Source: Terriglobia bacterium (GTDB taxonomy: Bacteria; Acidobacteriota; Terriglobia; Acidiferrales; UBA7541). Taken from it: DNA of 51,390 nucleotides. A model generated the notes under the pieces. The model was not told where the DNA came from and did not search any database. It saw only the letters and a program-made list of their open reading frames with translations. Position 1 is the stretch's first letter, and every line of letters begins with the position of its first letter. Positions 1,307-51,390 of the stretch are shown piece after piece. A program made the translations under genes and the position numbers. The stretch is from assembly GCA_020072765.1 (NCBI GenBank), contig JAIQGD010000005.1:1-51390 (forward strand), given 5' to 3'.

Positions 1307-2518
1307 ATGGAATTACGAACTGCGATGCTGAAGGCTAGGCAAATCCTGGATGAGGAGCTTTCTTCTCCTACGGTTTCATATAAGCTAGCGGTGCCTCCGC
1401 TGAGCTCAGGTTCAGCTGCTCTTCTCTCCCAGATTGGCACCGTACTGACTCTCTCGCAAGTACGCTCGCAGCGACCGCGCCCAGTATTCGAGGACCCGGC
1501 AGCCTTTCGATTCGAAAGCATGAACTGTGATCTATTGCGGGTGCTCCTCTCCCAACTCTCGGAATCAGCGCGGCCTCAATTTCTGCGCTTGGTGCAAACG
1601 CGTTTCTTATCGGGCCTGGCATGCAGAAAGGAACACTCGAACATCTACCCGAAATGGGACAACCTCATATCGGAATTGCCTCTAGTGGTGGAGTTCTTGA
1701 CACGAAACGGTGGAAAAGAAGAGCTGTTTGGCGCGCTGGAGGCCAAAGACACTCCTATTATCCCCGGACATGTGTTGATGTTGGCGCAGATCGAGGACAT
1801 GATTGCTCTGAACTACACGGTATTCAGCGATTCCGAATACGATCGACTCGGATCGGCTGTGACGTCTTTTGGCTCGCTTGCGGCGGCCTTTGCGGACAAG
1901 CATAGGGAAAAGACGCCAGGAAATGCCGGCGGGTACGGCAAAATAATTTACAGGGGCCTGGGTAGCATTAGCCTCTTGAACCTGCGGAACGAAATTGTGC
2001 GCATTTGCAACGGCATAATTGAGGAGTGCCAGAAAGCCAAATATCTCTACCTGAAGGGCTCACTTCTAGAAGGCCTCAATCTCGAGGTAAACCAGGACAA
2101 GCTCAAAGTGGAAGGCTACCTCAGGCGCTTTGGGTTCACGCCCCTTCTAAATGGTTCACTCGATGAGGCAGACCGGCTATATCACGAACAAGCGACGCCC
2201 TTCGACTTCAAGAGTAGCATCGGACACATTCGGAGCTTTCTCGAGAATCTGCAGAAGGAAGCGATACCGAAGATACACGCAAAGTATGGCGGAAGCCTTC
2301 CTATGAAATGGGGAGAGGGGCTCACCTATCTGCTGCAGCAAGGCATCCTCTCAAAAGCCGAGCAACAGTTTGCGGTCCATTTCTTCACTCTAATCAGTGA
2401 CGAGGGAGTCCATCCGCTCATTGCCGAAAGGGAATTCGCCCGACTGGCGCGAAACATGGTAATCGAATATGCGTTACTCTTCCTGAGCAAACTGGAGAAG
2501 CTAGGCCTTGCCCTCTAA
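1307..2518 (+). CDS. Hypothetical protein, possible HEPN-like C-terminal helices
   Basis: A 403-residue soluble protein that I do not recognise. It has no signal peptide or membrane segment and looks mostly helical. The last 60 residues (region around ISDEGVHPLIAEREFARLAR followed by a long Leu-rich helix) resemble the terminal helical bundle seen in HEPN or abortive-infection-type proteins. This is only a resemblance: no clear Rx4-6H catalytic motif is evident. The gene is AT-richer than its neighbours, with codons such as AAA, ATA and CTA common, and stands alone between housekeeping genes, which suggests horizontal acquisition. A repeat element starts directly after its TAA stop. Defence function is a guess. 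Confidence 0.7.
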   Translation: MELRTAMLKARQILDEELSSPTVSYKLAVPPLSSGSAALLSQIGTVLTLSQVRSQRPRPVFEDPAAFRFESMNCDLLRVLLSQLSESARPQFLRLVQTRFLSGLACRKEHSNIYPKWDNLISELPLVVEFLTRNGGKEELFGALEAKDTPIIPGHVLMLAQIEDMIALNYTVFSDSEYDRLGSAVTSFGSLAAAFADKHREKTPGNAGGYGKIIYRGLGSISLLNLRNEIVRICNGIIEECQKAKYLYLKGSLLEGLNLEVNQDKLKVEGYLRRFGFTPLLNGSLDEADRLYHEQATPFDFKSSIGHIRSFLENLQKEAIPKIHAKYGGSLPMKWGEGLTYLLQQGILSKAEQQFAVHFFTLISDEGVHPLIAEREFARLARNMVIEYALLFLSKLEKLGLAL

Positions 2519-2678
2519 CAGAATAATGAAAAAGACGCCTCAGGGAACTTCAGGGGCTAAAGCCCCGTTGATTGTGCCGAGTTGATGTCGCGGCGTCCCG
2601 ATACAAAACATCGGGACGCCCAAACCGCGAAAGCCGCGACCCACAAAGCTGCCCGGATTTTTCAGCACTCGACTAAAG
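2519..2678. repeat. MITE-like palindromic repeat, copy A
   Basis: Starts at the base after the TAA stop of the preceding gene (CAGAATAATGAAAAAGACG) and ends in TTTTTCAGCACTCGACTAAAG. It contains the palindromic module AGGGGCTAAAGCCCC and a perfect 11-bp hairpin (GGCGTCCCGAT at 2592-2602 with ATCGGGACGCC at 2610-2620). The right part (AGCCGCGACCCACAAAGCT) is the reverse complement of sequence in copies F and G. The left part matches copies C and G in reverse. It belongs to the family described under findings. Confidence 0.75.
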
Positions 2679-2768
2679 GACAAGGAGATCGGCGGCAGAA
2701 CGGCAGGAAAGGCGACGTGCTGCGCGAAAGAGCCAGGAACACACGCTGTACTGGAAAGCGACGCTGAG

Positions 2769-2803
2769 ATTCTTCGCCCATCCTGATCGGATGGGCTCAG
2801 AAT
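2769..2803. repeat. Perfect hairpin repeat
   Basis: ATTCT-tc-GCCCATCC, a 5-base loop, then GGATGGGC-tc-AGAAT: two nested perfect stems (2769-2773 with 2799-2803; 2776-2783 with 2789-2796). It lies between the convergent 1307-2518 gene and lgt, where it could end transcription from either side, but there is no T-run. The ATTCT...AGAATGAC arms resemble those of the long hairpin at 48692-48848. Confidence 0.6.
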
Positions 2804-2896
2804 GACGCGCGGAGTGTGATTGCGTTTTCCGATGCAGTTGTTTGCTTGCGAGAAGTCCCGGCCAGTAGGACCGGCGGAAGGGCTGCCGGGCCGCCG

Positions 2897-3697
2897 CTAC
2901 ACAACCGAGGGTTGACCAGCGCCGCGCCGAAGGCCGCGCCACCAGAGCAGCCCGCCGCCGAGAATCAGGCCCGCGCTCGCGAGCTGCATCAGCGACACCG
3001 CATCGTGAAACATCAGCGTGCGGCCGGGATCGCCGCGGAAGAATTCGATGGTGCCGCGCTCGATGCCGTAGAAGATGAAATACGCGCCGATCATTTGGCC
3101 GCGAAGGCGCGGCCTCGTCCCCAGCCAGAGCAACAAAAGAAAATTCAGGAATTCGGCGCCGGCCTCGTACAGCTGCGTGGGGTGCAGCGAGACGTGAAGC
3201 GGCGTTCCGGCAATCTGCACGGCCACGGGACTCGTAAAGGTCACGCCCCAAGGCAGCGACGTCGGTTTGCCATAGCAGCAGCCCGCGGCAAAGCATCCCA
3301 GCCGGCCGATCCCGTGGCCCAGCGCGATGGCCGGGGCCACCAGGTCGAGCACGCCCAGAAGCGGCATCTTCTTGAAATGGCAGTACAGCACCACCCAAAC
3401 GATTCCGCCGAGGACGCCGCCATAAAACGTCCCGCCCGACTGGAACGTGACGACGCTAAAAATCAGGCTGGGGTCGGCAGTGAAAAAATCCCACGCGCTC
3501 AGGACCATCCACACCTTGGCCACCAGCAGCGCCACCAGGATTCCGTAAATGCCGAGGTTCCAGATATTGCGCGGGTCGAGGCCCGCCCGGGGAGCCTGAT
3601 GCCGCGCGTAGACGAGCGCGACCAAGAACCCCGCCGCCACCAGCGCGCCGTAGGTGTAGATGGTGACGGAACCGAGTTCGAAGAGGACCGGGTGCAC
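2897..3697 (-). CDS. lgt: Prolipoprotein diacylglyceryl transferase
   Basis: Transfers diacylglycerol from phosphatidylglycerol to the lipobox cysteine of prelipoproteins in the inner membrane, the first step of lipoprotein maturation. The 266-residue product is polytopic, with the conserved GHGIGRLGCF block at residues 128-137 and the HPTQLYE block downstream. The GCCYG stretch after GRLGC is the shorter variant of the Lgt signature. The open frame extends upstream to 4402, but that extension overlaps lspA out of frame. GTG at 3697, two bases after the lspA stop, gives the normal Lgt N-terminus. Last gene of ileS-lspA-lgt; lspA acts on the product of this enzyme, so two consecutive lipoprotein steps are co-transcribed. 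Confidence 0.93.
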   Translation of the reverse strand: MHPVLFELGSVTIYTYGALVAAGFLVALVYARHQAPRAGLDPRNIWNLGIYGILVALLVAKVWMVLSAWDFFTADPSLIFSVVTFQSGGTFYGGVLGGIVWVVLYCHFKKMPLLGVLDLVAPAIALGHGIGRLGCFAAGCCYGKPTSLPWGVTFTSPVAVQIAGTPLHVSLHPTQLYEAGAEFLNFLLLLWLGTRPRLRGQMIGAYFIFYGIERGTIEFFRGDPGRTLMFHDAVSLMQLASAGLILGGGLLWWRGLRRGAGQPSVV

Positions 3698-3699
3698 GG

Positions 3700-4203
3700 C
3701 TAGGCCCGCTCCTGATGGGGATGCCGCCAGTCCCGCAACATCTCGAACAGCACGAGCGCCGCGCCGGCGACAATCGCGGAATCGGCCACGTTGAACGTGT
3801 ACCAGTGGTAGGCGCCCAGATGAAAATCGATGAAGTCCGTGACGCTCTGCCGCAGCACGCGGTCCAGCACATTGCCGGCGGCGCCGCCCAGAATCAGCGT
3901 CATCCCATAACGACCCAGCCCGCCGCCCGCTCGATCGGTGGCCAGTAGCCACACGATCAGGGCCATCACCGCGGCCGAGAAGCAAATGAGCAGCGGCGCG
4001 CGCCAGGGCGCTCCGCCATCCGCAAAAATGCCAAAAGCGACGCCGGGATTGGTGGTGTGCGTGAGATTCAACAGGCCGGGGATCAGCACGCGCAGCTCGC
4101 CGGGATCCGTGAGCTTCGCCACGGCGTATTTGGTCGCCTGGTCCGCGGCCACCACGGCGGCGAAAAGGGCCGCGAGCCAGCCCGAACGTGACACCCCGCC
4201 CAT
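3700..4203 (-). CDS. lspA: Lipoprotein signal peptidase (signal peptidase II)
   Basis: Aspartic protease of the inner membrane that removes the signal peptide from diacylglyceryl-modified prolipoproteins. A 167-residue protein with four hydrophobic segments. The catalytic aspartates are in GNVLDR (D114) and FNVADS (D141), and the TTNPGVAFG block at about residues 50-58 is also conserved. The ATG at 4203 overlaps the ileS TGA by one base (TGATG), so translation is likely coupled. The ileS-lspA pairing is common in bacteria. Confidence 0.95.
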   Translation of the reverse strand: MGGVSRSGWLAALFAAVVAADQATKYAVAKLTDPGELRVLIPGLLNLTHTTNPGVAFGIFADGGAPWRAPLLICFSAAVMALIVWLLATDRAGGGLGRYGMTLILGGAAGNVLDRVLRQSVTDFIDFHLGAYHWYTFNVADSAIVAGAALVLFEMLRDWRHPHQERA

Positions 4204-7028
4204 CAGGGCTTGGCGCTCCCGGCCAGACTGCCGCCGCCCCGCTCGATTTCACCGAGCGCGGCGACGCAGCGCTCGCAAATCGTCGGATACTCGGCGCTCT
4301 TGCCAACGTGCGTCGAATAGTTCCAGCAGCGCTCGCATTTCTTGCCTTCGGCGCGCTGGATTTCGACGTGACACGCCTCGGAGCGATCCGCGCTTGCTGC
4401 ACCCTCCACCGAAACCAGTTCCACCTGAGAAACGATGAACAGTGCAGGCAGCGAGGAAGCGTATTGTTTCAACAGGCCGAGAGTCTCCCCATGCGCCCCG
4501 AGAGCGACTTTCGCTTCCAGCGCCGATGAAATCGTCTTAGCGCTGCGGGCCGCTTCGAGCGCCTTCAACACGGACTCGCGCACTTGCAGCAACCGCTCCC
4601 AATTCTTCGCGCGGGCTCCGTCACACGCGCGCTCGAATTCCTCCCCTGCCGGAAACAATGCCATGTGGACGCTTTCGGGATCGCCGGCCACGCGCGGCAC
4701 GTATTTCCAGACTTCCTCCGCGGTGAACGTGAGGACCGGCGCGATCAGGCGGACCAGGGCATGCGCGATGCGGTAGACGGCCGTTTGCGCCGAGCGACGG
4801 CCGAGACTCCGGGGCGCGGAAGTGTAGAGGCGGTCCTTGAGCACGTCGAAATAGAATGCGCTCAGCTCGACGGTGCAGAAATCGTGAATGGCATGGTAGG
4901 CGCGGTGGAACTCGAAATTCGCGTACCATTCGCGGCACTGGCGCACCAGCTCGCCCGTGCGGCGGAGCATCCACGCGTCCAGCTCCCACAGTTCGGCGTC
5001 GGGCACGGCGTCGCGCGCCGGATCGAAATCAAAAAGATTCGAGAGCGCGAAGCGGAACGTGTTGCGAATCTTGCGATAGGCCTCGGCGAGCTGGGTCATC
5101 ATGGCCTGCGAGATGCGCACGTCGGCCGTGTAGTCCTGCGAAGCGACCCACACGCGCAGCAGATCGGCGCCCCATTTCTCGCAGATTTCGTTGGGATACA
5201 TGGCGTTGCCGAGCGATTTCGACATCGGCGCGCCCTTCTCGTCGAGCGTCCAGCCGTGGGTCACCACCTGCTTATAGGGCGCGCGCCCGCGAATCCCCGT
5301 GGCAACCAGCAACGAACTCTGGAACCACCCGCGATACTGGTCGGGGCCTTCGAGATAGACGTCCGCGGGCCATGTGCCGTCCTTTTCGCTGAGCACGGCC
5401 AGATGCGTCGAGCCGGAATCGAACCACACGTCGAGAACGTCGGTTTCCTTGCGCCATTTCGCAGCCCCGCAGGCGCACTTCGTTCCCGGCGGGAGGAGTT
5501 CCTCGGCGGAGTGCGTGTACCAGGCGTCGGCGCCCTCGCGCTCGAAAAACGGCAGCACGTGCCGCAGGGCCTGATAGTCCGCCAACTGCTTGCCGCAGCC
5601 CTCGCAATAGAACACGACCAGCGGCACGCCCCAGTAGCGCTGGCGCGAGATGCACCAGTCCGGGCGCTCGGCCACCATCTCACGAATCCGCTCGCGCCCC
5701 CAGGCTGGGAGCCATTTCACCTTTTCGATTTCCGCGAGCGCATTCTGGCGCAGATTGCCGTGATCGAGCGCGATAAACCACTGCTCGGTGGCGCGGAAGA
5801 TCACCGGATTGTGGCACCGCCAGCAGTGCGGGTAGCTGTGCGAAAGTTTTCCCTCGCCGACGAGCATGCCGCGCTTCTTCAGCAATTCGATGACGATGGG
5901 ATTCGCCTCGAAGACCGTCTTGCCCTTGTATTCGGGCAGGCCTTCGACGAAGCGGCCGTCGTCGTCCTGCGGGGCATAGGCTTCCAGGCCGTATTTCTGG
6001 CCGGTGCGGAAGTCGTCGGCGCCGTGGCCGGGAGCCGTGTGGACCACGCCGCTGCCCTGATCAAGCGTGACGTAATCCGCAAGGACCGCGGGCACGCGCA
6101 GATCGAGAAACGGGTGCTGAAACTGGATGCCTTCGAGATCTCTTCCCTTCCATGATCCGTGGACGATGGGCGTCCCCAGCTTCAACTCGTCCGCGGCAGC
6201 CTGGACGCGATCCTTCGCCAGCAGGAGTTTTCCCGCCGAAGTTTCCGCGACGACGTATTCGAAGTCCGGATGAAACGCCAGGGCGCGGTTGGCGGGCAGG
6301 GTCCAGGGAGTGGTCGTCCAGATCAGGGCGCACACGTCGCTGCCGAGCGCGCTCGATTTCGGCCCGGCCACCACGGGAAATTTCACCCAGATGGAAGGGC
6401 TGGTGTGATCTTCGTATTCGACTTCGGCTTCGGCCAGGGCCGTGCGGTCGGAAATGCACCAGTAGACGGGCTTCAGCCCGCGATAGACGTAGCCCTTTTC
6501 GAGGAAGTCGATGAAGGCTCCGGCGATGCTGGCTTCGTGGCTGGGGTCCATGGTGAGGTAGGGCTTGTCCCACTGGCCGAAGACGCCCAGGCGCTTGAAA
6601 TCCCGTTTGTGGGCCTCGACGAAGCGCGCGGCAAATTCGCGGCACGTTCGCCGGAACTGCGCGGCCGTGACCTTGCTGGTCTTCCCGCCCAGCTCCTTTT
6701 CCACTTTCGTCTCAATCGGCAGGCCGTGGCAATCCCAGCCGGGGATGTACGGCGAACGGAAGCCGGCCATGGTCTTCGACTTCACGATCATGTCCTTCAG
6801 AATCTTGTTGAGCCCGGTGCCGAGATGGATTTCGCCGGTGGGATACGGCGGGCCGTCGTGCAGCACAAACAGGGGCGCATTGGCGCGCGATTCCAGAATG
6901 CGGCGATACAGCCCCGCCTGCTCCCAGGCGGCCAGTTGCTCGGGCTCGCGCTCGGGCAGGCGCGCCTTCATGGGGAAGTCGGTCTTCGGCAGATTCAGCG
7001 TGCTTTTCAGGTCGATGGTCTTTTCCAT
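4203..7028 (-). CDS. ileS: Isoleucyl-tRNA synthetase
   Basis: Charges tRNA-Ile with isoleucine and edits mischarged valine. A 941-residue class I synthetase. The Rossmann-fold HIGH element appears as HLGTG (H68-L-G-T71), so the last His is Thr. The second signature MSKS occurs in GAPMSKSLGN, and the C-terminal zinc knuckle is CERC...CERC near residues 895-920. GWDCHGLPIE after the first signature is typical of IleRS. The length is that of the bacterial type. The ATG at 7028 lies about 200 bases from the divergent TonB-like gene at 7230. No T-box leader is visible. First gene of ileS-lspA-lgt. Confidence 0.97.
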   Translation of the reverse strand: MEKTIDLKSTLNLPKTDFPMKARLPEREPEQLAAWEQAGLYRRILESRANAPLFVLHDGPPYPTGEIHLGTGLNKILKDMIVKSKTMAGFRSPYIPGWDCHGLPIETKVEKELGGKTSKVTAAQFRRTCREFAARFVEAHKRDFKRLGVFGQWDKPYLTMDPSHEASIAGAFIDFLEKGYVYRGLKPVYWCISDRTALAEAEVEYEDHTSPSIWVKFPVVAGPKSSALGSDVCALIWTTTPWTLPANRALAFHPDFEYVVAETSAGKLLLAKDRVQAAADELKLGTPIVHGSWKGRDLEGIQFQHPFLDLRVPAVLADYVTLDQGSGVVHTAPGHGADDFRTGQKYGLEAYAPQDDDGRFVEGLPEYKGKTVFEANPIVIELLKKRGMLVGEGKLSHSYPHCWRCHNPVIFRATEQWFIALDHGNLRQNALAEIEKVKWLPAWGRERIREMVAERPDWCISRQRYWGVPLVVFYCEGCGKQLADYQALRHVLPFFEREGADAWYTHSAEELLPPGTKCACGAAKWRKETDVLDVWFDSGSTHLAVLSEKDGTWPADVYLEGPDQYRGWFQSSLLVATGIRGRAPYKQVVTHGWTLDEKGAPMSKSLGNAMYPNEICEKWGADLLRVWVASQDYTADVRISQAMMTQLAEAYRKIRNTFRFALSNLFDFDPARDAVPDAELWELDAWMLRRTGELVRQCREWYANFEFHRAYHAIHDFCTVELSAFYFDVLKDRLYTSAPRSLGRRSAQTAVYRIAHALVRLIAPVLTFTAEEVWKYVPRVAGDPESVHMALFPAGEEFERACDGARAKNWERLLQVRESVLKALEAARSAKTISSALEAKVALGAHGETLGLLKQYASSLPALFIVSQVELVSVEGAASADRSEACHVEIQRAEGKKCERCWNYSTHVGKSAEYPTICERCVAALGEIERGGGSLAGSAKP

Positions 7029-7229
7029 CTTGCGGGGTCGAGAAGCCCTTTCTTGGACGCGCCACCGCTGCGTGCAGCGCGCACACCGTTGTGGTGACGC
7101 ATGTTGGCGCGGTGGAAACTCGGATTTCCGGTTGCAGACCGTATGTTACAATGAATTCTGAAGCGTGTCAGCCGCGCCCGGACCCGGACATCCTTTTTTG
7201 CGGAAAAGCATCGAATAAGGAGAAGGGTT

Positions 7230-8423
7230 ATGGGAGGCAGGCTTGCTGGTATGTCTGATTTCAGCGCCAGATTGAACGACGCGGGCCACTCAACGATGGA
7301 ACCCACACTCCGGCTGGATCGTCTGGCGAAGCCCGTACACGGCTCCAGCCTGAAAAGCCTGTTTTCGAACCTGCGAGACTTCCTCGCCGAGCGTCCCGTC
7401 AAAATTCGCGGCGGGGCCCCGGAAGTGTTTGCCTCTCAGCGGTTTGGCGGGGGCCTGGGCGAAAACCTCAAGGAATTTTTCCACTCCGGGCCGCGCGGCC
7501 GCGTCAATTCCGCGCTGCTGGTCCAGTGGGAGAACGAAACCACGTTCTGGCAAAATCTGCGCGATTTGATCACTCCCCCGAAACGGCCGCCCCTGCAGAC
7601 CACCAGCCAGTCGGTTCCCGTGCCCGAAATTTGGTCGAAGAACGCGGGGCTGCCGCGGGCGCAGGCGCTTTCGATCGCCGTTCATGTCGTCATGTTGCTG
7701 GTGTTGCTGGTCGTCATTCCGTTGCTGCCGGAACTGATGTCTCCGCCCACGACGAAAGCCAGCAACATGTCGGCGACCTCCATCGAGGTCTCGCCGTATC
7801 TGCCCAAGATGGCGCCCGCAGCCAAGAAAGCCGGCGGGGGTGGCGGACAGCACGATTTGGCTCCGGCCAACAAGGGCCGCGCGCCGAAATTCTCGTGGAC
7901 GCAAGTCTCCCGGCCCATGGTGAAACCGCCGGAGCGCCCCGAGATTGCCGTGACGCCGACCGTGCTGGGCAATCCGGCCACGGTTCCACCGAATATCAAT
8001 GCGTCGACCTGGGGCGATCCCCTGGGCAAGACGTCCAGTGACTCGATGGGGCAGGGACGCGGCACCGGCCTGGGGAATGGAAACGGCGCGGGCCTGGGCC
8101 CGGGCGAGGGATGGAACACGGGAGGAGGACTCCCGAATGCCGGAACCGGAGGTTACGGCTCCGCATCCTGCCTGTATTGCCCCAAACCGGACTACACCAC
8201 CGAAGCCATGAAAGTGAAAATTCAGGGTGTGGTCGAACTGGTGGCCGTGATTACGGCCGATGGCCGGGTGACGGACATTCATGTGGCCAAAGGGCTCGGC
8301 TACGGCCTGGATGAGAAGGCCATCGAAGCGGCGCGCACCTGGCGCGTCACGCCGGCGCGGGGTCCCGATGGCAGGCCTGCCGCGGTGCGGCAGCTCATTG
8401 AAGTCACGTTCAATTTGTACTGA
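7230..8423 (+). CDS. TonB-family energy transducer
   Basis: Probably couples the inner-membrane proton gradient to outer-membrane transport. The 397-residue protein has an unusual cytoplasmic N-terminal region of about 145 residues, one membrane segment at about 146-167, then a Pro/Gly-rich periplasmic linker. The TonB C-terminal domain (about 315-397) contains CPKPDYTTEAM, the VTADGRV-type strand and AARTWR. Ordinary TonB proteins have only a short N-terminal tail, so the long cytoplasmic part is atypical. The start at 7230 follows a good ribosome-binding site (AAGGAGAAGGG). No exbB/exbD or receptor gene is adjacent. Confidence 0.88.
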   Translation: MGGRLAGMSDFSARLNDAGHSTMEPTLRLDRLAKPVHGSSLKSLFSNLRDFLAERPVKIRGGAPEVFASQRFGGGLGENLKEFFHSGPRGRVNSALLVQWENETTFWQNLRDLITPPKRPPLQTTSQSVPVPEIWSKNAGLPRAQALSIAVHVVMLLVLLVVIPLLPELMSPPTTKASNMSATSIEVSPYLPKMAPAAKKAGGGGGQHDLAPANKGRAPKFSWTQVSRPMVKPPERPEIAVTPTVLGNPATVPPNINASTWGDPLGKTSSDSMGQGRGTGLGNGNGAGLGPGEGWNTGGGLPNAGTGGYGSASCLYCPKPDYTTEAMKVKIQGVVELVAVITADGRVTDIHVAKGLGYGLDEKAIEAARTWRVTPARGPDGRPAAVRQLIEVTFNLY

Positions 8424-40645: not shown

Positions 40646-41038
40646 ATGCACTTGGCATTGATTCTGCTCTTGGGGTTGGTGACGGGGATTCTGGTCGGGC
40701 TAATGGGCATCGGTGGCGGAATCGTTATCATTCCGGCGCTGGTGTACCTGCTGGGCATGGATCAGCACATGGCCCAGGGCACTTCCCTGTTCATCCTCCT
40801 TCCGCCGCTCGGCCTGGGTGCGCTGTGGATGTATTGGAAGAGAGGGCAGGTCGACCTGCGGGCGGGCGTCGCCTGCGCGGCCGGCTTTCTCATCGGCGGG
40901 TACGGCGGGGGGCTGATCGCCATTGAAATTCCCTCGCGCACGCTGCACGCGTTGTTCGGACTGTTCCTGATGTTCTCCGCAGTCATGCTGTGGAAGCAGA
41001 CGCGCAAGGCCTCCGGGAAGGAAGGCGCCCGTGCTTGA
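40646..41038 (+). CDS. TauE/SafE-family half-transporter, first half
   Basis: A 130-residue membrane protein with about four TM segments. The N-terminal LVTGILVGLMGIGGGIVIIP and QGTSLFILLPPLGL are the family repeat-unit signatures. Full TauE/SafE proteins are about 250 residues with two such units; here each unit is its own gene. The second gene begins inside the last eight bases of this one. The function may be export of sulfite or sulfonate-type anions, inferred from the family only. It follows the epimerase by 54 bases. Confidence 0.85.
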   Translation: MHLALILLLGLVTGILVGLMGIGGGIVIIPALVYLLGMDQHMAQGTSLFILLPPLGLGALWMYWKRGQVDLRAGVACAAGFLIGGYGGGLIAIEIPSRTLHALFGLFLMFSAVMLWKQTRKASGKEGARA

Positions 41039-41414
41039 AAGTCCCGCGCGGTTCGGGAGCATCTTCGGGGTGGCCTGCGTTGTGGGCGTGATGAGCGGGC
41101 TATTCGGCGTGGGCGGCGGCGTCCTGCTGGTGCCTCTGCTGGTGCTGCTCTTCGGTTTCGAGCAGCACCGCGCGCAGGGAACCAGTCTGATTGCCCTGGT
41201 GCCGCCCAGCGGCCTGTTGGCGTTTCTGGTGTACTACCGCGCGCACGAGGTGGACGTCCAGGTGGGACTCCTGATTATTCCAGGCGTCTTCCTGGGCGGC
41301 CTGCTGGGCGGGAAGCTGGCGGCGCGACTCTCGCCGCAGCGGATGCGGATTGTTTTCGCCGCCCTGCTGTTCGTGGCCGGATCGTGGCAAGTCGTGTCGG
41401 CGTGGGCGAAGTAA
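41031..41414 (+). CDS. TauE/SafE-family half-transporter, second half
   Basis: A 127-residue membrane protein starting with GTG at 41031, overlapping the previous stop by eight bases in a different frame. It contains the second copy of the unit: VMSGLFGVGGGVLLVPLLV and HRAQGTSLIALVPPSGLLA, clearly homologous to the first half. Together the two would give the standard eight-helix protein, probably as a heterodimer. A frameshift of one ancestral gene is the alternative, but the second half has its own plausible start. Confidence 0.82.
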   Translation: MLESPARFGSIFGVACVVGVMSGLFGVGGGVLLVPLLVLLFGFEQHRAQGTSLIALVPPSGLLAFLVYYRAHEVDVQVGLLIIPGVFLGGLLGGKLAARLSPQRMRIVFAALLFVAGSWQVVSAWAK

Positions 41415-46832: not shown

Positions 46833-46907
46833 ATGCGGACGAGCGTGCGGAAGATCGCTGCCATCGCAACGTTGATCTTAGGGGCATGGAAAACCGTCGC
46901 GCGATGA
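46833..46907 (+). CDS. Possible 24-residue hydrophobic leader peptide
   Basis: ATG at 46833 has GGAGG seven bases upstream, one of the best ribosome-binding sites here. The product has a basic start (MRTSVRK), a hydrophobic stretch (IAAIATLILGAW) and a short basic end. It could be a small membrane protein, a leader for the PQQ dehydrogenase gene 56 bases on, or the surviving signal peptide of a lost gene. Confidence 0.3.
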   Translation: MRTSVRKIAAIATLILGAWKTVAR

Positions 46908-46963
46908 CCGGCGGGCCGCCGTCACCGGCACATTTTTTGCTGCACCGATCGGGAGGAGAAAAC

Positions 46964-48694
46964 ATGGTCAGGATTTCGGCTGTGGTGCTGTCCCTTCTTT
47001 TTGCCGTCATGATGCCGGCTGCCGCGCAGGTTCAGAACTACACGCCGGTCACGCAAGAGATGCTGCTGAACCCCAGCCCCAATGACTGGCTGATGTACAG
47101 CCGAACCTACGACGCCTGGCGCTACAGCCCCCTCCAGCAGATCAACCAGAAAAATGTAAAACAGCTCCGCATGGCCTGGGTCCGCGGCCTGGCCGCCGGC
47201 ACCACCGAAACGATCCCCATCGTCCACGACGGCGTGATGTACGTGATCGCGCCCGGCGGAATCGTTGACGCCCTCAACGCCACCAACGGCGACCTCCTCT
47301 GGGAGTACAAGCGCGCGTACAAAAATCCTCAGCTCGGCTCGGTGGAAAGGACCAAGGCGCTGGCGATGTATAAAGACATGGTCTACTTCACCGCCCCCGA
47401 CGGCTACGTCGTCGCGCTGGATGCGCGCACCGGCAAGGTCCGCTGGGAAACCTTCAAAACCGAGACGCAGAATACTTCGGGCGCTCTGGTCGTCGACGGC
47501 AAGGTCATCTCCGGCGGCACCTGCGGCAAGGGCCGCGATACCTGCTTCATCGAGGCGGACAACGCGGAGACCGGAGAGAAAGTCTGGAGATTTTACACCG
47601 TGGCGCGCCCTGACGATCCGGGCTTCGCCTCCTGGCACGAAGCCGATAACTCGGAGGACATGGCCTCCACCTGGGGCCTGCCCGGCAGCTTCGATCCGGT
47701 TCGCAACGTGATCTACTGGGGCGTCGCCAATCCCATGCCGGACCAGCGCATCCTGCGCCACCACGGCAATCCCGATGGCACCTCGCGCTCCACGCCCGCC
47801 GACCTCTATAGCAACTGCACCCTCGCGCTCGATCCCGCCACCGGCAAGCTGATCTGGTATTACCAGCATCTGCCGGGCGATGACTGGGACACCGACCACA
47901 CCCACGAGCGCACTCTGGCGCGCGTGGCTTTCAATCCCGATCCCAAGTTCATCAAATGGATCAATCCCAACGTTCCGCGCGGCTCGATGCACGATATCGC
48001 GGCAATGGTGGCCGAAGGCGGCTCGGTGTTCGTCCTCGACCGCAACAACGGCCAGTTCCTCTGGGCCACGCCGTTTCCCTACGACGATCCGAACTTTGTG
48101 ATGTCCGACATCGACGTCAAGACGGGACAAACCACGCTCAATTGGAATTTGGTCTTCAAGCAGCCGGGCGATCACCACATCCTGTGCTACTGGAACACCA
48201 GAAGTTACTGGCCCACGGCGTACCATCCGGGCACGAACTCTCTGTATGTCCCCTATATCGACAACTGCCGCGACCTGACCACCCCGGGCCCGAACGGGCG
48301 GGGCGGCTGGAAGGTGATCCCGCGCCCCGGCTCGGATCCCAACGCTCTCACCGGCCTCGCCAAAATCAACATGTCCACCGGAGAGATCCTGCGGTTTGAC
48401 GTCGGCCGCGCTCCCGGCAACGGCGCCATGCTGACGACCGCCGGAGGACTGGTGTTTCACGGGGACATGAGCCGCAGGTTCCGGGCGTTCGATGCCACCA
48501 CCGGCAAAATGCTCTGGGAATCCATTCTCGGAGGCAATATTTCCGTCAGCACCATCGCCTACGCGGTCAACGGAAAGCAGTACATCTGCGTCATGACCGG
48601 AGACAACCTCAAGGTGCCGGAACTCAGCGCCGAGGTCCCGGACATGCACACGCCCACCGGCCACAACGCGATCTATGTCTTTGCGTTGCCCTAG
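46964..48694 (+). CDS. Secreted PQQ-dependent dehydrogenase
   Basis: Quinoprotein of the methanol/ethanol dehydrogenase superfamily, 576 residues. ATG at 46964 with GGGAGGAG upstream; the frame extends to 46886 without a signal. Signal peptide MVRISAVVLSLLFAVMMPAAA. The eight-bladed propeller is built of W-motif repeats (NGDLLWEYKR, TGKVRWETF, TGKLIWYYQH, TGKMLWESILGG). DDWDTDHTHERT is in the position of the active-site acid region. A GTCGKGRDTC pair replaces the vicinal disulfide of methanol dehydrogenase. No C-terminal cytochrome c domain and no adjacent cytochrome gene, so the electron acceptor is unknown. Its TAG stop begins repeat H. Confidence 0.9.
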   Translation: MVRISAVVLSLLFAVMMPAAAQVQNYTPVTQEMLLNPSPNDWLMYSRTYDAWRYSPLQQINQKNVKQLRMAWVRGLAAGTTETIPIVHDGVMYVIAPGGIVDALNATNGDLLWEYKRAYKNPQLGSVERTKALAMYKDMVYFTAPDGYVVALDARTGKVRWETFKTETQNTSGALVVDGKVISGGTCGKGRDTCFIEADNAETGEKVWRFYTVARPDDPGFASWHEADNSEDMASTWGLPGSFDPVRNVIYWGVANPMPDQRILRHHGNPDGTSRSTPADLYSNCTLALDPATGKLIWYYQHLPGDDWDTDHTHERTLARVAFNPDPKFIKWINPNVPRGSMHDIAAMVAEGGSVFVLDRNNGQFLWATPFPYDDPNFVMSDIDVKTGQTTLNWNLVFKQPGDHHILCYWNTRSYWPTAYHPGTNSLYVPYIDNCRDLTTPGPNGRGGWKVIPRPGSDPNALTGLAKINMSTGEILRFDVGRAPGNGAMLTTAGGLVFHGDMSRRFRAFDATTGKMLWESILGGNISVSTIAYAVNGKQYICVMTGDNLKVPELSAEVPDMHTPTGHNAIYVFALP

Positions 48695-49107: not shown

Positions 49108-50901
49108 ATGAAAATCAACAGGCGCAAACTATTGTCCTTGCTCGGTGTTTCTCCGGCGGTTCTGGCCGGCTCTCCCGTTCTGGCGGACCAGCCGAAGAAG
49201 AAGGGCGCTGCAGCCGGCGGCGAATCCAAGATCACGGCCCTCAATCCCAAGGGCGTGCCGCCTCCGGTCGTGCTCATCCCCATGGCGCCTCGCCTCTCCA
49301 GCCTCGATGGCAAAACGATCTTCTTGGTTTCCGATGGCTTCGCTGGCGCGGACCGCTTCCTCAACCAAATCGCGGTCTGGTTCAGCAAGAACATGCCCAG
49401 CGTAACCACCATCTACCGCTTGAAGGCGGGGTCGTACTTTGATGATGACCCGAAGCTCATGGCGGAAATCAAGGCCAAAGGCAACGCCATGATCATGGCG
49501 TACGGCCATTGAAGCACCTGCACCCCAGCGACCGTGAGTCACTGCGCACAAGTTGAAAAATTGGGTTTCCCGACGGCCCCCCTGGTCACCATCGCCTTCA
49601 AGGATCTCGCCAAATCGAATGCCGCCAACCGGGGCATGCCGGGCGAGCGCATCACCTTCCTTCCGCACCCCATGACCAACAAGACCGACGAGCAAATGTA
49701 CGCGGTGCTCGAAGGGAACGACCCCGTCACGGGCAAGAACGTAATGAAGGAAATGATCGACGCGCTCACCCAACCGCTGACGGCCGAGGAAAAGAAAACC
49801 GGAACCGTCACTCCGGACGTCGGCCCGGCGACGTACACGGACACAGCGGACAACCTCCAGCGCTTTTACTGCGACAACAACCTTACGGATTTCATGCCGA
49901 TCATCCTGCCCACCGAGGAAAAAGTCGAAGCGATGCTCAAGGGCACGAGCCACAAGCCCGACGAGGTCGTCGGAGAGCTGAGCGCCGCCCGTGGAGCCCA
50001 GCCCTCGTGGTCATTTACGGTCAGGCACGTGGCCATCAATGCGGTCATGGCCGGCGCACGGCCGGAATATTTCCCCGTGATTCTCGCGATCGCCTCGACG
50101 GGTCAGCCCGCGCTGTTCAGTTCCACGTCCTCATTCTCCCGCATGCTGCTGCTGAATGGTCCCATCTCCGACCAGATCAAGATGAACTACGGCATTGGCG
50201 CGATGGGGCCCTTTGCCGAGCCCAATGCCACCATCGGCCGCGCGTGGACGATCCTTTCGAAGAATCTTGGCGGCTGCGGCATGCCCGGACTCACCTACAT
50301 GGGTAGCCTGGGATCCAACCTCAATTACAACAACATCTGCATCGCGGAAACGGAAAACAAGCTTCCGGACGGCTGGAAGCCGCTCCACGTGCAAAAGGGC
50401 TTCAAGCCGGATGAAAGCGTCGTCAGCATCTTCAGCGGCTGGAGCCTGAACAATGTCGCCTGGTTCAGCGCCCTGCCCATCCACGATGTCATCAAGAACT
50501 GGCTGACGCATTTCTTCTCGTTCGGCAACAGCGCTGCGACGCTGCTGCTCGATCCCACGGTTGCCAGAGACGCCAAAGATCACGGCTACAACTCGAAGGA
50601 AGAGTTAAGCGACTACCTGTCGAAGAACTCGAAGACGCCAGCTTGGCTCTATTGGGACACGCACCGGAACGAGCTGAAGCAGGCCCAGGCGGGCGTCGAG
50701 CCATACGCTTCCTATCTGAAGATGGGGGACGCCGACATTCCGTTCCAGCGCTTCTACCGCCGCGGACGCCCCGGCGCACCGCCCGATCCCAATCCGAAAT
50801 CTTCGATCGAGGTCGTCGTGCTCGGGGGCGAGACCAACACCTACTGGGCTGGGGGCGACTTCAGCTACGTCACCAGCGCATCCGTTGACAAGTGGCGATA
50901 G
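49108..50901 (+). CDS. UGSC-family selenoprotein with in-frame TGA (Sec135)
   Basis: One gene with an in-frame TGA at 49510-49512, read here as selenocysteine. The codons before (AMIMAYGH) and after (STCTPATVSHCAQVEKLG) join into a block matching the UGSC family as I recall it: a hydrophobic strand ending in Gly-x, then Sec/Cys-x-x-Cys, then ...EKLGFPTAPLVT. Sec135 and C138 form the redox pair. The total is 597 residues. The N-terminus MKINRRKLLSLLGVSPAVLA is a signal peptide with a twin arginine, so export by Tat or Sec is likely. A second domain (from about residue 285: VRHVAINAVMAGARPEYFPV onward) carries further conserved-looking blocks such as NLGGCGMPGLTYMG. The downstream frame alone would begin at GTG 49534 without a ribosome-binding site, inside the conserved motif. 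Alternative: a pseudogene with one nonsense mutation, less likely given intact frames on both sides and the hairpin. Substrate unknown. Confidence 0.85.
49526..49544 (+). promoter_or_regulatory. Candidate bacterial SECIS element
   Basis: CAGCGAC (49526-49532), loop CGTGA, GTCACTG (49538-49544): seven positions with one C-A mismatch in the middle. A lower stem TGC/GCA (49519-49521 with 49546-49548) can extend it. The upper stem starts 13 bases after the TGA and the loop G and U are 22 and 23 bases after it. This satisfies the bacterial rule of an apical loop 16-37 bases downstream with a G among its first two bases; in E. coli fdhF the upper stem starts 11 bases after the TGA. It lies within the coding sequence, as expected. 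Confidence 0.72.
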
Positions 50902-51084: not shown

Positions 51085-51390
51085 ATGGATTCCCCCGAAC
51101 AAACGCCTCCGGCCACCGGCCTCAGCGAGCAGGAGGCTGTGTCGAGGCTCCAGGCCGAAGGGCCCAACGAACTCCCCTCATCCCGAGCGCGTTCGATTGC
51201 CGCCATAACCTGGGGCATTCTCACGGAACCGATGATTCTGCTGCTGGCAGGTGCGGCAATCGTCTATCTGCTGTTGGGCGAGCTTAGGGATTCTCTGATC
51301 CTATTGGCTTCGGTTCTCGTCGTCGTGGGAATCAGCCTCTACCAGGAACGCAAGACGGAGCGCGCCCTGGAGGCGCTGCGAGACCTGACC
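51085..51390 (+). CDS. P-type cation-transporting ATPase, N-terminus (partial)
   Basis: ATG at 51085 opens a frame that runs off the right edge after 102 codons. The N-terminal region GLSEQEAVSRLQAEGPNELP is the cation-ATPase N-domain signature of the P2 (Ca/Mg/Na) type. Two hydrophobic helices follow (EPMILLLAGAAIVYLLLG; SLILLASVLVVVGISLYQ), then the start of the linker to the A-domain (ERKTERALEALRD). TACAAT at 51064-51069 could be the -10 element. The catalytic DKTGT lies outside the window. Confidence 0.88.
   Translation, partial: MDSPEQTPPATGLSEQEAVSRLQAEGPNELPSSRARSIAAITWGILTEPMILLLAGAAIVYLLLGELRDSLILLASVLVVVGISLYQERKTERALEALRDLT

Follow-up and report, generated by a model that had tools for sequence, protein, structure and literature searches.

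UGSC has long been recognised as a selenoprotein family, and the passages on it in PMC2398784 place it among the most abundant such families in water samples, call it probably thioredoxin-like and describe, from marine metagenomes in 2008, its fusion to a conserved domain named Unknown_1. A 2026 review counts UGSC among 119 families and subfamilies, noting that nearly all of those redox selenoproteins came from bioinformatics (PMC13188914). Family members (PF24696; NF041046) carry a U/C-x-x-C motif at the end of a strand, in which selenocysteine (Sec) and Cys exchange. A UxxC motif is also found in the Sec subunits GrdB, GrdF, GrdH and PrdB, those of glycine reductase B, sarcosine reductase, betaine reductase and D-proline reductase, respectively. 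In GrdB and PrdB, the Sec nucleophile acts on an activated substrate.

The locus described here lies at the end of a 51,390-nucleotide stretch of contig JAIQGD010000005.1 from a Terriglobia bacterium (hereafter the window), where a gene for a two-domain UGSC-type selenoprotein of 597 residues occupies positions 49108–50901 on the forward strand. Compared with the UGSC family, its product has in addition a signal peptide and a second domain of 360 residues, and this one genome carries 15 copies. Like the UGSC/Unknown_1 fusion, it joins a UGSC domain to a conserved domain lacking known function; the original prediction, which regarded the C-terminal domain of more than 300 residues as setting the protein apart, has to yield on this point, since such a fusion was described in 2008 in the UGSC passages of PMC2398784. 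Export, paralogue expansion and gene neighbourhood, in contrast, are absent from the description of the fusion in those passages. The kind of selenoprotein is already known, and what is unexpected is not the TGA but the number of copies, the genes that lie beside them and the uncharacterised second domain.

The gene and its in-frame TGA

Read-through translation starts at an ATG at 49108, ends at a TAG at 50899–50901, and meets a sole break in frame, the TGA at 49510–49512 (+), which is codon 135. The junction reads GH-U-STC-TPATVSHCAQVEKLG, with the codon of the partner Cys138 at 49519–49521 (+). The frame check agrees with the original prediction that two same-phase open reading frames are separated by a single TGA, and the list of open reading frames agrees that gene callers would return a shortened N-terminal protein, ending at 49512, and a second gene with a misplaced GTG start, at 49534–50901. 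The read-through translation, the PF24696 match of the joined protein and its paralogues confirm 49108–50901 as a single gene. Chance or a sequencing error behind the TGA, the latter raised by the original prediction as something that resequencing might reveal, is ruled out by TGA in the same aligned column of 14 other full or nearly full paralogues and of L036, an orthologue from another metagenome-assembled genome (MAG) that is 74% identical.

The genome encodes all four parts of the Sec machinery named by the original prediction, each over its curated cut-off: selA (568 bits), selB (373 bits), selD (371 bits) and tRNA-Sec (69 bits). A single TGA interrupts the frame of each of the 15 paralogues, always at the same alignment position and with xxC after it. 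Among relatives from public genomes, about 77 copies carry TGA at the Sec site and 9 carry TGC or TGT, so Cys homologues, which the original prediction had suggested looking for, do exist with Cys at exactly residue 135, in a GHCSTC context in 8 of the 9. On the maximum-likelihood tree the Cys forms represent three separate changes nested among Sec clades, and one Candidatus Acidiferrales contig (L040) carries a tandem array of three copies, two with Cys and one with Sec. Natural Cys homologues include those of Microbacterium album and of a Rhodobacterales isolate. Columns 135 and 138 are conserved in at least 90% of 79 sequences. The exceptions at the Sec position include L046:5619-7397, L047:5992-7767 and L053:6004-7581, where Leu or Met replaces Sec or Cys, which implies that some family members work without Sec; in these three the redox role has possibly been lost.

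Together, the Sec machinery, the Cys homologues and the TGA-bearing paralogues support the original proposal that this TGA encodes Sec, and on such comparative grounds codon 135 is almost certainly decoded in that way. Reading the TGA as an ordinary stop, with 49108–49512 as a short protein or pseudogene and 49534–50901 as a separate gene, could appeal to the GTG available at 49534 and to the genome's use of TGA as a true stop, but a lone TGA shared at one site by all 15 paralogues and by about 77 copies in relatives, with Cys in others, the complete Sec machinery, and protein homology that runs unbroken across codon 135 make it exceedingly improbable, and the comparative evidence already contradicts it. 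Several of the 15 paralogues use TGA as their terminator, which shows that the codon still serves as a stop elsewhere in the genome, and a genome-wide code change in which TGA specifies an amino acid everywhere was rejected.

A SECIS-like hairpin, CAG.GAC-[CGTGA]-GTC.CTG, is present at 49526–49544 (+), its loop starting about 20 nt after the TGA. Its position and the G within the first two loop bases match the bacterial SECIS pattern, and it is weaker than the hairpins of the relatives (z 1.56, with 10% of synonymous shuffles equally good). In Sec genes the small loop mostly starts 16–21 nt past the TGA, and 90% of them have a G among the first two loop bases, versus 33% of Cys homologues. Scored against synonymous-codon shuffles, the hairpin reached a mean z of +1.5 in 90 Sec genes and -0.1 in the 9 Cys homologues (Mann-Whitney p 2.8e-6, a rough value since the sequences are related). 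A general free-energy test of folding over the 48 nt downstream of the UGA did not separate Sec and Cys genes; its p-value is rough for the same reason. The group statistics clearly point to a SECIS-type hairpin after the TGA, as a predicted element.

Domain architecture and predicted export

The UGSC domain spans residues 57–199 (49276–49704, +), over which the joined protein matches PF24696 with 87.5 bits (E 1.5e-24; Pfam gathering cut-off 25 bits), bearing out its assignment as UGSC-type; all 79 aligned relatives match the same model. The NCBIfam model NF041046 (UGSC_fam) places the domain at 49306–49701 with 70.6 bits, and no copy in the genome passes its cut-off of 125 bits. The original prediction saw in USTC a departure from the canonical UGSC, a distinction that dissolves within the genome itself, where copies with UGSC, UGGC, UDGC, UPGC, UHGC and UNGC also occur and the two residues between U and C vary freely. 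An AlphaFold2 model of the whole protein, built from 79 sequences (pLDDT 91.6, pTM 0.89), shows the domain as an alternating strand/helix fold and places U135–C138 between strand 127–133 and helix 138–151. The listed structural matches of the Sec domain were Rossmann/flavodoxin-like, with Z up to 10.5 and none decisive. In the fold search with the full model, the two hits with E < 0.001, a serine hydroxymethyltransferase and a phosphosugar isomerase, were rejected for poor superposition (rmsd 14), and the VIA-align matches were Rossmann-like and tied with unrelated proteins. A sequence search of the PDB with family profiles gave no significant match.

GrdB, GrdF, PrdB and GrdH recur as next-best families for 18, 10, 8 and 5 of the 79 members, respectively (best E 1.2e-4), all far under the cut-offs of those families (TIGR01917, NF040794, NF040795 and TIGR04483). 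For the window protein, the match covers the Sec motif at residues 122–192 with E 0.16, and TIGR01917 scores 10.8 bits against a cut-off of 602. The likeness is weak and recurs over the Sec motif, UxxC in each case, and the next helix, and unlike GrdB and PrdB the window protein has another second domain and predicted export. The Sec domain may be distantly related to the glycine and proline reductases.

The C-terminal domain covers approximately residues 236–597 (49813–50898, +). Beyond residue ~230, no Pfam or NCBIfam family was found in the window protein and none consistently in 78 relatives. Its predicted structure is confident, with pLDDT 93.2 and pTM 0.92 when folded alone, and a fold search of the isolated domain against the PDB gave no clear match (best Z 4.9 over 90 residues); the best Foldseek match, a class I fumarate hydratase (E 2.9e-3, match probability 0.35), was set aside as too weak. 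Such weak matches to a predicted model do not establish a new fold. The many invariant residues of the domain would fit an enzyme domain.

Residues 1–26 (MKINRRKLLSLLGVSPAVLAGSPVLA; 49108–49185, +) form a putative signal peptide with a twin-arginine-like motif, NRRKLLSLLG, ahead of a hydrophobic stretch. The pattern xxRR[KNQ]xLxxLG followed by a short hydrophobic stretch stands at the N-terminus of 10 of the 15 copies, and some others have ordinary signal-like N-termini. The protein is likely exported, as judged from these N-termini. Of the twin-arginine signal claimed in the original prediction, the motif stands and the Tat route is only plausible, as no TatC was found in the window's assembly (96.6% complete); 17 of 19 congeners do have TatC, which makes a gap in the assembly likely. 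Outside Acidobacteriota, no signal peptide is visible by eye in the N-termini of many homologues.

Paralogue expansion and gene neighbourhoods

The core interpretation of the original prediction holds, and what lay beyond the reach of the window alone is that the gene belongs to a set of 15 UGSC-type paralogues in a 3.78 Mb draft genome. Identity of the other copies to the window protein ranges from 29 to 60%, and on the tree several of them are paired with copies of other MAGs, which indicates that they are not recent duplicates or mixed strains, and these two explanations were rejected. The nearest named relatives are acidobacterial MAGs, and the congeners include Candidatus Acidiferrales JOPF101 and Acidobacteria palsa_295. 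Within the genus, 13 of 20 genomes have 2–21 matches each, fragments included; no match was found in the 17 genomes from the family's other genera or in 6 from the rest of the order, and matches occur in 2 of 18 from the rest of the class. As selA and selB are nearly universal across the class, the expansion does not simply track Sec use. The two-domain protein also occurs in Pseudomonadota, Chloroflexota, Myxococcota, Bacillota and Actinomycetota. Among the paralogues of the genome, L033:2997-4673 and L027:7894-9546 include one whose C-terminus is disrupted and one from which a stretch of about 40 residues is missing; gene decay or faulty assembly may account for them. The current record for predicted selenoproteins is 63, in a Methylomirabilota MAG.

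Upstream of the selenoprotein gene, at 46886–48694 (+), is a gene for a PQQ-type quinoprotein with a beta-propeller (PF01011, E 5.2e-53). It scores 284 bits against TIGR03075, under the cut-off of 480, and falls under the cut-offs for both PQQ alcohol dehydrogenase and "acido-empty-quinoprotein group A". The arrangement of a quinoprotein gene followed by a UGSC gene recurs in L036 (84% identity). Across the genome, 8 of the 17 quinoprotein genes have a Sec copy no more than 3 kb away, where 0.43 would be expected, and the link is seen on 5 of the 10 contigs that hold Sec copies (p 2e-5). Several of the linked quinoproteins are PQQ alcohol dehydrogenases over the NCBIfam cut-off, and others belong to "acido-empty-quinoprotein group A". 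These acidobacterial quinoproteins (TIGR03075, TIGR04528) neighbour the Sec copies of the genus but are a different protein family; from the linkage we infer a functional tie between quinoprotein and UGSC protein. On contig C96, four quinoprotein genes (L027:48-1898, 2036-3895 and 6036-7907; L026:10009-11883) are interleaved with UGSC selenoprotein genes, and one of the four is an "acido-empty-quinoprotein group A" member over cut-off.

In some 16 of 80 loci from other organisms (for example L069:5019-5963, L068:7725-8633, L092:7654-8598 and L057:7638-8537), the same strand encodes, within about 200 nt, a thioredoxin-reductase-like flavoprotein whose CxxC, mostly CASC, is intact; it adjoins Sec and Cys forms alike and offers the best hint of a putative electron donor. 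Alongside the acidobacterial copies, no reductase gene was found. At L102:3892-5796 and L102:2984-3889, in a gammaproteobacterial MAG, genes for selB and a pyridine-nucleotide-disulfide oxidoreductase adjoin a UGSC gene. Full-text searches of the open-access literature turned up no description of an acidobacterial UGSC expansion, of the neighbouring reductase or of the linkage with quinoproteins.

Two other features of the window were recorded. At 40646–41414, two overlapping half-size open reading frames (130 and 127 aa) look like a membrane transporter in two halves, and 51086–51390, judged by eye, resembles the beginning of a cation-transporting P-type ATPase that is truncated where the contig stops.

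A candidate role in the cell envelope

We tentatively propose that the gene encodes an exported two-domain Sec reductase of the cell envelope, a mechanism that, taken whole, has a reasonable chance of being right while falling short of probable. UGA 135 would be decoded by SelB and tRNA-Sec, aided by the hairpin just downstream, and the mature protein would act in the envelope. There Sec135, at the end of a beta-strand, and Cys138 would form a selenol/thiol pair resembling the one in the Sec subunit GrdB or PrdB; by analogy with these enzymes, UGSC may use the same Sec chemistry. The target of Sec would be a small organic substrate that is bound together with the C-terminal domain, the reduced product would leave as a selenenyl-sulfide forms with Cys138, and a thiol donor would re-reduce Sec, the likely donor in homologues of other phyla being the neighbouring thioredoxin-reductase-like flavoprotein. 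The fifteen copies would differ in substrate, and because the multiplied family of the genus lies beside PQQ-type quinoproteins, the substrates would probably be products or substrates of quinoprotein dehydrogenases.

The UxxC motif and the adjoining flavoprotein in other phyla would also suit a UGSC selenoprotein engaged in envelope redox upkeep instead of substrate catabolism, whether as a thiol:disulfide exchanger, a peroxide-type scavenger or a reductase repairing quinoproteins, whose disulfides might need upkeep and whose genes adjoin; the probable thioredoxin-like nature stated in the UGSC passages of PMC2398784 points the same way. However, fifteen diverged copies, and a C-terminal domain that is large, conserved and rich in invariant residues, better suit substrate diversity than a single housekeeping task, and the listed structural hits of the Sec domain are Rossmann/flavodoxin-like, a result with which a thioredoxin-like role stays compatible; we consider upkeep unlikely, though deserving of weight. 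Envelope paralogues that bind or signal, using Sec to sense oxidants or metals, would explain the signal peptides and many copies of the genus, and Leu or Met in place of Sec in some relatives suggests that a Sec-free role can evolve; but retention of the two Sec/Cys positions across at least 90% of 79 diverse sequences, and the reductase genes adjoining in other phyla, make sensing distinctly improbable.

For the substrate-reducing enzyme that we favour, the broader picture would be a genus of uncultured soil Acidobacteriota with a periplasmic set of a dozen or more Sec reductases, each combining a GrdB-like Sec domain with a domain of new fold and paired with quinoprotein dehydrogenases as substrate-specific modules, a picture that we regard as possible but doubtful. 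Three handles on the function of this abundant family are now available: the flavoprotein neighbour in other phyla, the possible remote kinship with the glycine and proline reductases, whose chemistry is known, and the quinoprotein neighbour in Acidobacteriota. For the organism, the finding means that the selenoproteins of a soil-bacterial genus form a large and diverged set, which ordinary gene callers split or shorten.
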